A model generated the notes under the pieces. The model was not told the DNA's origin and did no database searches. It worked only from the letters and a program-made list of their open reading frames with translations. From Clostridiales bacterium (GTDB lineage: Bacteria > Bacillota > Limnochordia > Darwinibacteriales > B1SED10-159), in NCBI GenBank assembly GCA_003559095.1, contig PWMW01000043.1:1-64000 (forward strand): 64,000 nucleotides of DNA, read 5' to 3'. A program made the translations under genes and the position numbers. Shown here piece after piece: positions 35,972 through 40,662 of the stretch (its first letter is position 1; the number at the start of each line of letters is the position of its first letter).

Positions 35972-36706
35972 GTGAAGAATACTGTTGTTTTGGCGGTAGC
36001 GTTAACACTGGTTCTTTTGGTAAGCTCGGCGGCAGGGGCAATGATGTTTCAGGTGGATGGACTGTACTTATTGGGGAACTCGGACTCGGAGTTTGCTGGC
36101 GCAACCATGACCACGAAAGGCCTCAACTTCAGTGCTGGAGTCCAGGCTGAAGTATTTCCTGACATCTTGGCTGATGCGCGCTACCTCTTCTCGGCGGCTG
36201 ATTCGCTGCAGGTGGGTGACGAGTTTGAGGAGTTTGGTGACAACAGCGGCTATAAGGCGGATTTCAATCTGATCACAGGCGGCATTCAATATCGGGTTAT
36301 GGAAGAGGATGGCATCGGCTTTTTCGTGGGTGCCGGTTATGCTCTGCTCAGCGGCGAATACAAGCGTGCTGTGGAGGTCGGTGCAGCAACGGAGGGTGAT
36401 GGCGGAACCCTGTCTGGCTCTAGCTTCTATGGCAAGGCCAGAGTGGCCGTGGACGTGAATCGGGACGTCTCCTTCTATGGCGACTTGGCATTTGCCCCTA
36501 TGGTTAAGAACTTCGCCTTAGGTTCGGCAGACGACGGCGAAGGAAGTATCCTCAGCGCCCGCGGCGGTGTGGTCTATCACATCAATGAAATGCTGGGCAT
36601 TCAGGCCGGTGTTGATTTCAGCAGTGCCAAAGCCGAGTTTGCCGATGCAGATAACTTCAGCGTGTCGTCAGTACTTTACGGTGCTGGTGTGGTCGTTCGC
36701 TTCTAG
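35972..36706 (+). CDS. Secreted putative outer-membrane beta-barrel protein
   Basis: Signal peptide MKNTVVLAVALTLVLLVSSAAGA; amphipathic strands; C-terminal LYGAGVVVRF. Confidence 0.65.
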   Translation: MKNTVVLAVALTLVLLVSSAAGAMMFQVDGLYLLGNSDSEFAGATMTTKGLNFSAGVQAEVFPDILADARYLFSAADSLQVGDEFEEFGDNSGYKADFNLITGGIQYRVMEEDGIGFFVGAGYALLSGEYKRAVEVGAATEGDGGTLSGSSFYGKARVAVDVNRDVSFYGDLAFAPMVKNFALGSADDGEGSILSARGGVVYHINEMLGIQAGVDFSSAKAEFADADNFSVSSVLYGAGVVVRF

Positions 36707-36764: not shown

Positions 36765-38564
36765 CTATTCCAGTCGAAACTCTATGGCAATGGAATCCGT
36801 GTCCGGAATACTGACGCGTTCGCTGAAAATCCAATGAGAACTGCCGGTCACAGGAATGCGGGCCGTCAGCGCGTACTCACCTGGCGGCAAAGAGCCGTCA
36901 AAGGTGCGATCAGGGCCAGCCTCAGCCCAATAGATCAGGCCTGCGTGGGCACCGGTCAGCGCCTCGAATCCGATCCAAGCTCGATGGAGATAGGATTGCG
37001 TAACGGCGGCGTAGGCATTGACCATCCGACGCGGGTGATGATCGAAGGGCAGACCAATCCCCGTTTTGTAGAGTCGCTCCCAGATGGCTGTGGGAGTCAA
37101 ACCCCCTTCGACGCTGAGCAGGAGGCCGACGATGCCGCTGACCAAGGGCGCCGCCATGGAGGTACCGAGGTCCTCGGTATAACCGCCGGCTGTGGTGGTA
37201 CTGAGAATGCTCGGCCCTCCCCTTGTTCCTCCCGGTGCAAAGAGGAGGACAGGTTCGTTGTCCGGACCTAAGAGCGAGTACGATGCTACCTGTGGACGCC
37301 CCTGTCCGTCAACCTCTACAGCACCCACGGCAATGACCTCACCATAGGCCGCTGGAAAGAGAGTGCAGTAGGGCTCAGAGGCACCGAGACCGCAGTTGGA
37401 ACCGCTGACGTTTCCCGCGGCGGCTATGATCGTGACGCCTTGGGCATGGGCGTTCTGGATGCTGGTGAGTGAAGCTGGAAGGTCCGAACGGCCACCCAAG
37501 CTCAGGTTCATGATCTGCGCCCCTTCGGACGCGGCCAGAGCCAATCCTTCGGCTAAGATGGCATCCGTACCACCCCCATTTAGGACACCGTAGGATCGCA
37601 GATCAGCACTCCAGATGGTACCGGCCACGCCGCGGTTGTTGTTCGTAGTGGCGCCGATGATGCCAGCCACGTGGGTGCCGTGATGCTGGGGCTGCGTGCT
37701 GGATGTCAGGGAGTTGACACGGAGCAGGTTCGCCTGGAGATCCGGATGCCCTCCATCGGCAAGGGTATCCAGAATGCCGATGCGTACAGGTGGTTGGGGT
37801 CGGCCCGTTGTGATGTGCCATGCGTGGGGGAGATAGATCAGGTCATAATGCCACTGCTCCTGGAATAAGGGGTCATTGGGCTGGCGCATGGCAGAGGCAA
37901 ATACGGGAGCATTCCAGTCCAGCCACTGAACCTCTGGGTCTTGGGACAAGGCCATGTATGCCTCCTGGGCTTCGTTCTCTGACAGATCTGACAGACTCCA
38001 AAGATTGGCATGGGGATAATATCTGACAGTACCATGTTTTTCCCAAGGGCGCAAAGGCTCCCCGCTGGAGGCCTTGAGAACAATACTTCGCCGCTCATCC
38101 AACGGCCACTGCTGCGTCTCTACCAACCCGGATGTCCGGAACGCTTCCCCGGCGCCAGCTACCGACAGCGAAGCCTGCGGCAGCTGGTAGTCGAGGGTTC
38201 CAGACACAAGTAGCCCAGCGTAGGTCTGAAAGTCCAGTTGAAGAAGGGATTCATCTGCGCTGACAGCCATCTGTATGGGGTGATGTTGGGGAATTTGAAA
38301 CTCTAGGGTCCAAGGTCCATGGCGGCGAGTGGTGGTCCAGTTCACGGAAAAACGACCGTCAGAGCCCACGGGAACCACTTGGCGCCGCAGTTCATCGCCA
38401 CTATAGATCACCAGGGACGTCGGTAAGACATCCTCCAGCGCTCCATGGACAACACCCATAAGTTTTACGGAATAGGTTGCGCCGCCCACAAAGCTCAAGT
38501 GCGGCCAACAGCCGCTGGTGGTGACAACGATCAGTAGGAGAATGCCTAGCCAACGAGTCCGCAT
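36765..38564 (-). CDS. S8 subtilisin-like serine protease, predicted lipoprotein
   Basis: Lipobox LLIVVTTSGC; IGILDTLADGGHPDL, HHGTHVAGIIGAT and DLGTSMAAPLVSGIVGLLLS triad motifs. Confidence 0.9.
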   Translation of the reverse strand: MRTRWLGILLLIVVTTSGCWPHLSFVGGATYSVKLMGVVHGALEDVLPTSLVIYSGDELRRQVVPVGSDGRFSVNWTTTRRHGPWTLEFQIPQHHPIQMAVSADESLLQLDFQTYAGLLVSGTLDYQLPQASLSVAGAGEAFRTSGLVETQQWPLDERRSIVLKASSGEPLRPWEKHGTVRYYPHANLWSLSDLSENEAQEAYMALSQDPEVQWLDWNAPVFASAMRQPNDPLFQEQWHYDLIYLPHAWHITTGRPQPPVRIGILDTLADGGHPDLQANLLRVNSLTSSTQPQHHGTHVAGIIGATTNNNRGVAGTIWSADLRSYGVLNGGGTDAILAEGLALAASEGAQIMNLSLGGRSDLPASLTSIQNAHAQGVTIIAAAGNVSGSNCGLGASEPYCTLFPAAYGEVIAVGAVEVDGQGRPQVASYSLLGPDNEPVLLFAPGGTRGGPSILSTTTAGGYTEDLGTSMAAPLVSGIVGLLLSVEGGLTPTAIWERLYKTGIGLPFDHHPRRMVNAYAAVTQSYLHRAWIGFEALTGAHAGLIYWAEAGPDRTFDGSLPPGEYALTARIPVTGSSHWIFSERVSIPDTDSIAIEFRLE

Positions 38565-38655: not shown

Positions 38656-38684
38656 TTGACATATTCAAAGTGTTGGCTTAATAT
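38656..38684 (+). promoter_or_regulatory. Strong sigma-A-like promoter TTGACA-N17-TAATAT
   Basis: Near-consensus hexamers with 17-nt spacing, in an AT-rich intergenic region before the DUF2089 gene. Confidence 0.7.
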
Positions 38685-38744
38685 TGAGGTAAGACATTTA
38701 AAAAATCAATCTAAAAATGAATATATGAAAGGTAGGTGTTCTAT

Positions 38745-39113
38745 GTGAGTCATCCCATGGTAAGTTCCTGTCCTGTGTGTTCGGGGGCCATGGAAGTGCG
38801 CAGCCTTCACTGCCCAAGCTGCGATACCTCACTGCATGGGCGCTTTACGCCCTGCAAATTCTGCAAGCTCAGTAACGAACAGCGGGAGTTTGTAGAAGTG
38901 TTCTTAGCCTCCCGTGGGAACATCAAGGAGGTGGAGCGTCTGCTGGGTATTTCGTATCCCACTGTGCGCAGTCGTCTTGATACCATCGTGGAATCCATGG
39001 GCTACCGAGTTGAGCGCGATGAAGACAATCGGAGGCGCTCTGTCCTGGAAGCGCTTAGTAAGGGCGAGATATCTTCGGAAGAAGCCGTGAAGCTGTTAAA
39101 GACCAAGGCGTAG
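38745..39113 (+). CDS. DUF2089-type zinc-ribbon/HTH protein with C-terminal SHOCT-like motif
   Basis: CPVCSGAMEVRSLHCPSCDTSLHGRF; GNIKEVERLLGISYPTVRSRLDTIVESMG. Confidence 0.85.
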   Translation: MSHPMVSSCPVCSGAMEVRSLHCPSCDTSLHGRFTPCKFCKLSNEQREFVEVFLASRGNIKEVERLLGISYPTVRSRLDTIVESMGYRVERDEDNRRRSVLEALSKGEISSEEAVKLLKTKA

Positions 39114-39126
39114 AGGAGGAGCTATT

Positions 39127-40299
39127 GTGAACGAGGAACGCAGACTAATACTGAAGATGGTGGAAGAAGGTAAGATCACAGCCGATGAAGCGGCGGCACT
39201 CCTAGAAGCACTTGGCGAGGAGCCGGAGGCGGCGGGAGATTCCCACAATACGGAGGACACTTGGACCCGCTTGGAAAAGCAGGGTGAAGAATTCGCCCAC
39301 AAAGTGGAAGCGGCGGCTGAGAAGTTCAGCCGTTCCTTAGAAGACAAGATTGAAGGCGGAGTAGGCGAAAGCTTATCGCGCATGGGTAGAATGCTATCCA
39401 AGCTGCCTTTCGTCAGCGGCGAAGAAAGTTATGAAATGATGCGGGAGTATTCCGGTCAGCTCCGGCCGGGCGAATGGGAAGTACCTATCAGCATTCACAC
39501 CGCCAATGGGCGGATAAATGTGGAAGGTTGGGAAGAGGAACACTACAAAATCGTGGTGGTACAGCAAGTTCGTGCTAAAGACAGGGATAGCGCCAGAGCG
39601 AAGACGGTGCAGCTGGATCTAGAGGATGGAGCCCAGGACATGGAAAGTGTCCATATTATGCCGCCGCCGGCTGCCAATGTAACCTTTTCCTTCCACGTGT
39701 TTGTACCAAAGAACCGCGTCTATGATGTGGATATCCTCAATACCAATGGTCGGATACAGCTGGACGGATTGCACTGCCGCAATGTCAATGTGGAGACGAC
39801 CAATGGTCCGATCACGCTCGAGCACGTTAAGGGTGCTGAGATCTACGCCAGTACGGTCAACGGCTCGGTGCAGATGGCTGCTGTGGAGGGCGAGAATGTT
39901 GTCCAGAAAGCTGGCAACGGCTCAGCGCGACTGCGCGTCATGGCAAGACAATTGGAGGCGACGACCACCAATGGGTCCATTCGAGTGGAGCCGCTAATGG
40001 GCACCTTTGCAGCAAGCGAAATTAAGCTTGCCGCCACCAATGGGTCGATTCGCTGCATGGTAGCCCGCAGCTCTGATCTAGGTACTAAGGTGGAGGCTAT
40101 GACCGCGGTGGGCCGAACAGACGTTGAGCTCGACGGATTCGAGTTCACATCGCAAGAACGCCGAGTTGGCGGCAGCCGTATGGAAGGAGAAAGCAGGGGT
40201 TTTGAAGAGCAGCCCCGAAAAATGACCATATGGGCCAAGGCAGGTTCTGGTTCGATCCAGATTTCCCACCTAAAGGAGGATGGCCATGGCAAAGCATGA
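39127..40299 (+). CDS. SHOCT-like N-terminal domain plus DUF4097 beta-helix protein
   Basis: LILKMVEEGKITADEAAALLEALGE; repeated TNGRI/TNGPI/VNGSV/TNGSI turns. Confidence 0.85.
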   Translation: MNEERRLILKMVEEGKITADEAAALLEALGEEPEAAGDSHNTEDTWTRLEKQGEEFAHKVEAAAEKFSRSLEDKIEGGVGESLSRMGRMLSKLPFVSGEESYEMMREYSGQLRPGEWEVPISIHTANGRINVEGWEEEHYKIVVVQQVRAKDRDSARAKTVQLDLEDGAQDMESVHIMPPPAANVTFSFHVFVPKNRVYDVDILNTNGRIQLDGLHCRNVNVETTNGPITLEHVKGAEIYASTVNGSVQMAAVEGENVVQKAGNGSARLRVMARQLEATTTNGSIRVEPLMGTFAASEIKLAATNGSIRCMVARSSDLGTKVEAMTAVGRTDVELDGFEFTSQERRVGGSRMEGESRGFEEQPRKMTIWAKAGSGSIQISHLKEDGHGKA

Positions 40300-40639
40300 A
40301 GAGCGTCTGCAGATTTTGGAGATGCTGAAGGCAGACAAGATCAGCACCGATGAAGCTGCCAAGCTTCTGGAAGCACTGGATGGCGGGGAGCGCCATGGAC
40401 GCACGGACACAAGGAATATTCACATCCGTGTCTTCGAGAACGGCAAGGACAAAGTGAACGTGAATATTCCAGTGAGCTTAGCTCGTCTTGCTCTTAACTT
40501 GGTGCCCAACGATGTGGTGATCGAACAAAATCTCAATCTCAGGTCATTGATCACCAGTATTGAAGCAGGATTTCGCGGCAAACTTGTGGAAGCAGATATA
40601 CCGGAAGAAGGTCGTAAAATCGAAGTCTTTGTGGATTAA
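40286..40639 (+). CDS. Small SHOCT-like domain protein
   Basis: ERLQILEMLKADKISTDEAAKLLEALDGGE N-terminus; overlaps the upstream gene. Confidence 0.75.
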   Translation: MAKHEERLQILEMLKADKISTDEAAKLLEALDGGERHGRTDTRNIHIRVFENGKDKVNVNIPVSLARLALNLVPNDVVIEQNLNLRSLITSIEAGFRGKLVEADIPEEGRKIEVFVD

Positions 40640-40662
40640 GGGTGGACTTCCACCCTTTTTTC
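40638..40662 (+). terminator. Rho-independent terminator after the SHOCT operon
   Basis: AAGGGTGG-actt-CCACCCTTTTTT. Confidence 0.8.

Follow-up and report, generated by a model that had tools for sequence, protein, structure and literature searches.

A DUF2089 operon with shared SHOCT-like hairpins and a predicted operator array: a candidate self-regulated envelope-response module in a Clostridiales bacterium

DUF2089 proteins have been divided into a zinc ribbon, a helix-turn-helix (HTH) and a SHOCT-like domain, and their genes lie next to Toastrack genes in different lineages (Ravi et al., 2024, PMC11237479). In its passages on these neighbourhoods, that study proposes that they turn membrane signals into transcription, in a signalling role like that of the phage-shock-protein (PSP) and Lia systems, in which the SHOCT-like domains would work at the membrane, so that a membrane-stress module built on a shared motif is already a published idea. 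The same passages mention no operator for DUF2089 neighbourhoods. Here, we describe such a neighbourhood in a 64,000-nucleotide stretch of a Clostridiales genome (contig PWMW01000043.1, positions 1 to 64,000; hereafter the window), in which genes for a DUF2089 protein (D), a Toastrack protein (T) and a small third protein (S) form an operon. As in the neighbourhoods described in those passages, D has a C-terminal SHOCT-like domain and a Toastrack neighbour, which in some published cases also carries an N-terminal SHOCT-like domain. The window differs from what they describe in encoding three soluble proteins, the third with an uncharacterised domain, in an operon without a membrane gene.

Bacillus subtilis YvlB, encoded in yvlABCD, resembles T in joining a SHOCT-like to a Toastrack domain (PF22746 and PF13349 both match in B. 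subtilis), and interacts with PspA and LiaH in two-hybrid assays (PMC9239133). However, a search for DUF2089 gave no match in B. subtilis, and whereas the partners of YvlB in its operon are a PspC protein (YvlC) and putative membrane proteins, the window operon encodes none of these. In Enterococcus, the holin-like LiaZ follows LiaX and LiaY (PMC11601895), LiaX being an effector and regulator of the LiaFSR response. T matches the LiaX model NF038025 over its Toastrack part (78.3 bits, E 5e-22), but this is far below the cut-off of 350, and T is not classed as LiaX. In addition, liaXYZ is under LiaR, whereas the window operon holds its own DUF2089 protein. In several other families of the phylum, a PF04020 protein with four transmembrane segments follows the D/T/S cassette, as LiaZ ends liaXYZ.

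The best explanation that we can offer for the locus, and one which as a whole has about an even chance of being correct, is a self-regulated PSP/Lia-like envelope-response module that works without PspA. D would bind predicted 13-bp dyads placed every 21 bp, i.e., two helical turns apart on one DNA face, across its own -35 and -10 elements, and its occupancy of the promoter would repress the D-T-S operon. The hairpins of D, T and S would act as docking modules that recognise either one another or a single shared partner, and the Toastrack scaffold T and the small S would bind D, releasing or holding it according to the state of the envelope.

The first-pass annotation of this DNA had noticed one motif in all three proteins, and a single Pfam family, PF22746 (SHOCT-like_DUF2089-C), does match D, T and S; the motif is an already catalogued family and not, as had been supposed, an undescribed resemblance. 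T (46.6 bits, E 2e-12, residues 3-34) and S (42.3 bits, E 4.7e-11, residues 7-37) score above the curated cut-off of 27 bits and D below it (19.4 bits, E 7.7e-4, residues 100-122 of a 125-amino-acid open reading frame (ORF)). The D hairpin is the DUF2089 C-terminus, i.e., the place that gives PF22746 its name, and aligns without gaps with those of T and S; the gapless alignment extends across about 150 homologues. Given that the 4.18-Mb genome has no PF22746 match besides those in D, T and S, chance adjacency of the three motifs is excluded.

A new result of this analysis is that the cassette is conserved across the phylum. PF22746 is present in 54 of 61 genomes, the window's own included, and the order D-T-S with a hairpin on every protein was found at 30 loci, 28 in the window's class and two in Chloroflexota. 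A further 14 loci in the class have D-T and four have D-S. When loci were chosen independently of the motif, by searching the phylum with the DUF2089 HTH alone, 24 were obtained outside the window's class. D has the hairpin in 21 of these and is adjoined by a hairpin-bearing T or S in all 21, whereas none of the three D proteins without a detected hairpin (L160, L182, L183) has a hairpin-bearing neighbour. Conserved co-occurrence, on which the first-pass annotation had let its proposal depend, is thus found outside the class as well. At three Chloroflexota loci (L035, L037, L038) the T hairpin lies at the C-terminus rather than the N-terminus, and at L042 it is borne by a pentapeptide-repeat protein, another type of beta-helix, that adjoins D and T; the module is therefore kept, but not its position.

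Co-presence of the hairpin on D and its neighbours is the best evidence here that the motif links these proteins, and would fit mutual contact or a shared partner alike. Direct hairpin-mediated coupling of D to T and S has, in our judgement, slightly less than an even chance. Somewhat unlikely, by comparison, is that the hairpins are targeting tags, by which D, T and S are each recruited to the inner membrane or to a common unlinked partner without touching one another. Such targeting by SHOCT-like domains is predicted in the passages of PMC11237479 cited above, and the hairpin is found on unrelated proteins, e.g., near the N-terminus of an AAA ATPase (AAA and AAA_lid_6) at L098, so that it is also used outside the D-T-S module. 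In addition, canonical SHOCT was tested for self-oligomerisation without support (Eberhardt et al., 2013, PMC3581485), which leaves the earlier description of an “oligomerisation motif” unproven. On the other hand, the hairpins are short and charged, no transmembrane segment is present in D, T or S, and the lack of hairpin-bearing neighbours beside hairpin-free D proteins fits contact within the module, although a common partner would explain this too. Within genomes, T and S hairpins co-evolve slightly more than shuffles (p 0.006, uncorrected for relatedness), to which we give no weight, and D and S hairpins show no co-evolution relative to shuffles.

Another result is a predicted operator array upstream of D. 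When D upstream regions were aligned at the -35 element, 13-bp dyads of the form TTRA-N5-TYAA were seen in a 21-bp register at -21, 0 (with TTGACA), about +21 (over the -10 element) and about +62/63 (before the ribosome-binding site). In 50 upstream regions, mostly from the window's class, 67 exact boxes were observed against 2.6 in dinucleotide shuffles, and 34 pairs spaced by 21 bp against 0.1. As these are related genomes, the count was repeated on 23 loci from other families of the phylum, where 14 pairs at 21 bp were observed against 0.15 in shuffles (maximum 2 in 100 shuffles), the next best spacing being 42. This array is new, and its dyads greatly exceed chance expectation both in the class and in a separate set drawn from across the phylum. 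By locus, a pair at 20-22 bp was present in 28 of 44 and 13 of 23 D upstream regions, compared with about 9 of 1289 control windows (0.7%) and 4% of AT-rich windows.

The array of the window consists of one exact box, two near-exact boxes and one half-site (Table 1). The equivalent of box 1 is exact in many relatives, and the third box is better preserved in relatives than here. The conserved TYAA half-site of box 2 sits in the promoter spacer and is not a promoter element; it occurs in 26 of 46 D promoters but in only 4 of 35 other promoter-like sites in the same loci (p 3e-5). Two of these other sites, in L173 and L179, have a full or near-full box pair and lie about 300 bp ahead of D. At these two loci and at L172 the 21-bp array is about 300 bp upstream of D, which would accommodate one more small gene or a long leader sequence.

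A search of the 61 genomes made without reference to D placed most exact double boxes, by our count 11 of 18 distinct places, directly upstream of D. The window's own genome has one further place with a single mismatch, inside a kinase gene, and three with two mismatches; the places inspected held no other array in a promoter position. In a phylum-wide pattern search, at least 2 of 8 places belong to D promoters. In one (G115) the array lies upstream of D; in the other (G083) it lies at a contig edge, and matching sequence makes it appear to be a D promoter cut by an assembly break.

D probably autoregulates its own operon and, if so, likely as a repressor. Fold and profile searches place the D HTH nearest, over about 50 residues, to LuxR/GerE-type domains (VpsT, GerE, LiaR, VraR) and to sigma region 4, with E-values that are individually weak and not significant alone; D differs from the LuxR/GerE type in having a zinc ribbon before the HTH and the SHOCT-like hairpin after it. 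The S, Y and R residues of the recognition helix are invariant across phyla. It is unlikely, in our view, that D instead activates the operon, or that another, unlinked regulator binds the 21-bp array and D acts elsewhere. LuxR-type proteins can also activate, and boxes at -21 and -42 upstream of the -35 element occupy the usual site of a LuxR-type activator. However, the boxes also cover the -35 and -10 elements, which is why repression is favoured; the -35 hexamer is already consensus; and the array is present with D in D-T-S, D-T and D-S operons alike and is rare elsewhere. The last alternative, that the shared motif reflects recent duplication or a common HTH-like sequence without function, is disfavoured as very improbable: at about 25 residues the motif is short, and the hairpins of T and S are marginally more alike within one genome than between genomes (0.551 against 0.529), but each hairpin type is closer to its own orthologues (0.52 for D, 0.65 for T, 0.56 for S) than to the other types (0.36 for D-T, 0.35 for D-S, 0.53 for T-S), and the hairpin is kept across the class and in Chloroflexota.

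Several points weigh against a self-regulated envelope module. The window has a half-site instead of a full box at one position, and both in the Chloroflexota loci and at several D loci the array is weak or missing. Operons without D lack the array, but deletion of D could itself have removed the promoter. No PspA/IM30 (PF04012) match was found in the 95%-complete assembly and no PF04020 protein in the genome, and the D-T-S operon contains no membrane protein gene, neither PspC nor PF04020. The oligomerisation result for canonical SHOCT and the capacity of LuxR-type proteins to activate, both given above, count in the same direction.

An envelope signal as the input is, nevertheless, a reasonable expectation at somewhat better than even. 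The membrane or stress role suggested by the first-pass annotation holds in part: YvlB and LiaX as relatives, the four-transmembrane PF04020 neighbours elsewhere and the envelope-protein neighbours of the operon speak for it, whereas the soluble nature of D, T and S and the failure to find PspA and PF04020 do not. As regards the classical PSP proteins, PspA was not found and PspC is present, the genome encoding two PspC proteins on other contigs; DUF4097 has four matches in the genome. The organism is probably a diderm Firmicute, because Omp85 is encoded in the genome and a gene for an outer-membrane-type barrel lies near the operon. The divergent subtilase gene shares its intergenic region with the D operon; Pfam identifies a subtilase at the equivalent divergent position in seven relatives and, judging from position and size, three more appear to share it. 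Instead of the subtilase, another family of the order has a short protein that ends in F ahead of D; of three such proteins tested, one gave a weak OMP_b-brl match.

Although DUF2089, SHOCT-like and Toastrack domains are widespread, the literature searched demonstrates no function for either a DUF2089 regulator or the SHOCT-like domain. A concrete operator sequence and spacing, together with the contrast provided by hairpin-free D proteins, opens the regulator's target and the role of the hairpin to simple binding and reporter assays, and offers a way to approach how diderm Firmicutes without PspA may detect damage to the envelope. As a tentative generalization, DUF2089 proteins might form a family of autoregulators that bind cooperatively to one operator kept throughout the phylum, TTRA-N5-TYAA every 21 bp, with the hairpin as a hetero-association switch by which the Toastrack scaffold and the new small domain of S govern the regulator, i.e., a one-component counterpart of LiaFSR without a histidine kinase or PspA.

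Re-reading of the sequence confirmed the positions of the three genes and their motifs, and pattern matches to a promoter on the 5' side and a terminator on the 3' side agree with the single operon proposed earlier. Most relatives have the promoter at about -100 relative to the core codon of D. The profile matches also agree with the pairing of a DNA-binding-type protein and a beta-helix protein. D scores above the cut-offs of the zinc ribbon PF22747 (51.1 bits, E 1.4e-13) and the HTH PF09862 (85.7 bits, E 1.7e-24), and its AlphaFold2 model (predicted local distance difference test (pLDDT) 84, predicted template modelling score (pTM) 0.50) shows a zinc ribbon, a helical HTH and a C-terminal hairpin. 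T matches Toastrack/DUF4097 (PF13349) at 56.6 bits (E 3.3e-15, cut-off 22.9).

S has 117 amino acids (119 if counted from an earlier ATG), and its start codon region overlaps the end of T. A further new finding is that S carries a conserved C-terminal domain without a Pfam or Protein Data Bank (PDB) match. Beyond the N-terminal hairpin no Pfam match was obtained, the alignment contains an invariant strand KVNVNIP, and the AlphaFold2 model (pLDDT 76, pTM 0.48) consists of the hairpin followed by beta-beta-alpha-alpha-alpha-beta-beta; the best hit of a fold search against the PDB had E 0.57. Short profile matches of S to designed TIM barrels, and two marginal ones, were judged spurious. PDB sequence searches with D, T and S gave nothing useful, and a PHROGs search gave nothing.

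Table 1. Coordinates of the D-T-S operon, its predicted control elements and adjacent genes in the window
Feature	Position	Strand	Basis or remark
Small outer-membrane beta-barrel-like protein ending in F	35972..36706	+	OMP_b-brl match
Divergent S8 subtilase gene, lipobox-like start VVTTSGC	36765..38564	-	PF00082, 1.7e-41
Predicted operator box 1, TTAATAAATTAAA	38635..38647	+	7/8 matches to TTRA-N5-TYAA; 21 bp upstream of -35
Predicted operator box 2, TTGACATATTCAA	38656..38668	+	8/8 matches; contains -35 hexamer
Sigma-70-type promoter TTGACA-N17-TAATAT	38656..38684	+	Pattern match
Degenerate third box, left half-site TTAA only, over -10	38678..38690	+	Sequence
Predicted operator box 4, TTTAAAAAATCAA	38697..38709	+	7/8 matches; +41 from box 2
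Gene D, DUF2089 protein: zinc ribbon, LuxR/GerE-type HTH, C-terminal SHOCT-like hairpin	38745..39113	+	
SHOCT-like hairpin of D	39030..39104	+	PF22746
Gene T: N-terminal SHOCT-like hairpin, helical linker, Toastrack (DUF4097) beta-helix	39127..40299	+	
SHOCT-like hairpin of T	39133..39228	+	PF22746
Gene S: SHOCT-like hairpin, uncharacterised C-terminal alpha/beta domain	40286..40639	+	
SHOCT-like hairpin of S	40298..40390	+	PF22746
C-terminal domain of S with invariant KVNVNIP strand	40412..40633	+	Alignment, AlphaFold2 model
Intrinsic-terminator-like hairpin with T run	40638..40657	+	Pattern match

Variants of the cassette and of the hairpin were also seen. At L176, L177 and L178, D has an extra N-terminal region (ORFs of 336-593 amino acids) and lies beside Toastrack proteins with a C-terminal hairpin; the array was looked for upstream of these three and none was found. 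Members of the window's order at L098, L099 and L100 (weakly L101 and L102) encode proteins of 312-348 amino acids that carry a SHOCT-like hairpin close to their N-terminus. The gene cluster for the leaderless bacteriocin bawcin also includes a protein annotated as DUF2089, BawC (PMC10707071, Table 1), a further link of DUF2089 to membrane attack or immunity. Finally, the operons at L161, L169 and L170 are expanded, with D, T, a small membrane protein, a second Toastrack protein with a C-terminal hairpin and then one or two S-like proteins, giving four to five hairpins per operon.
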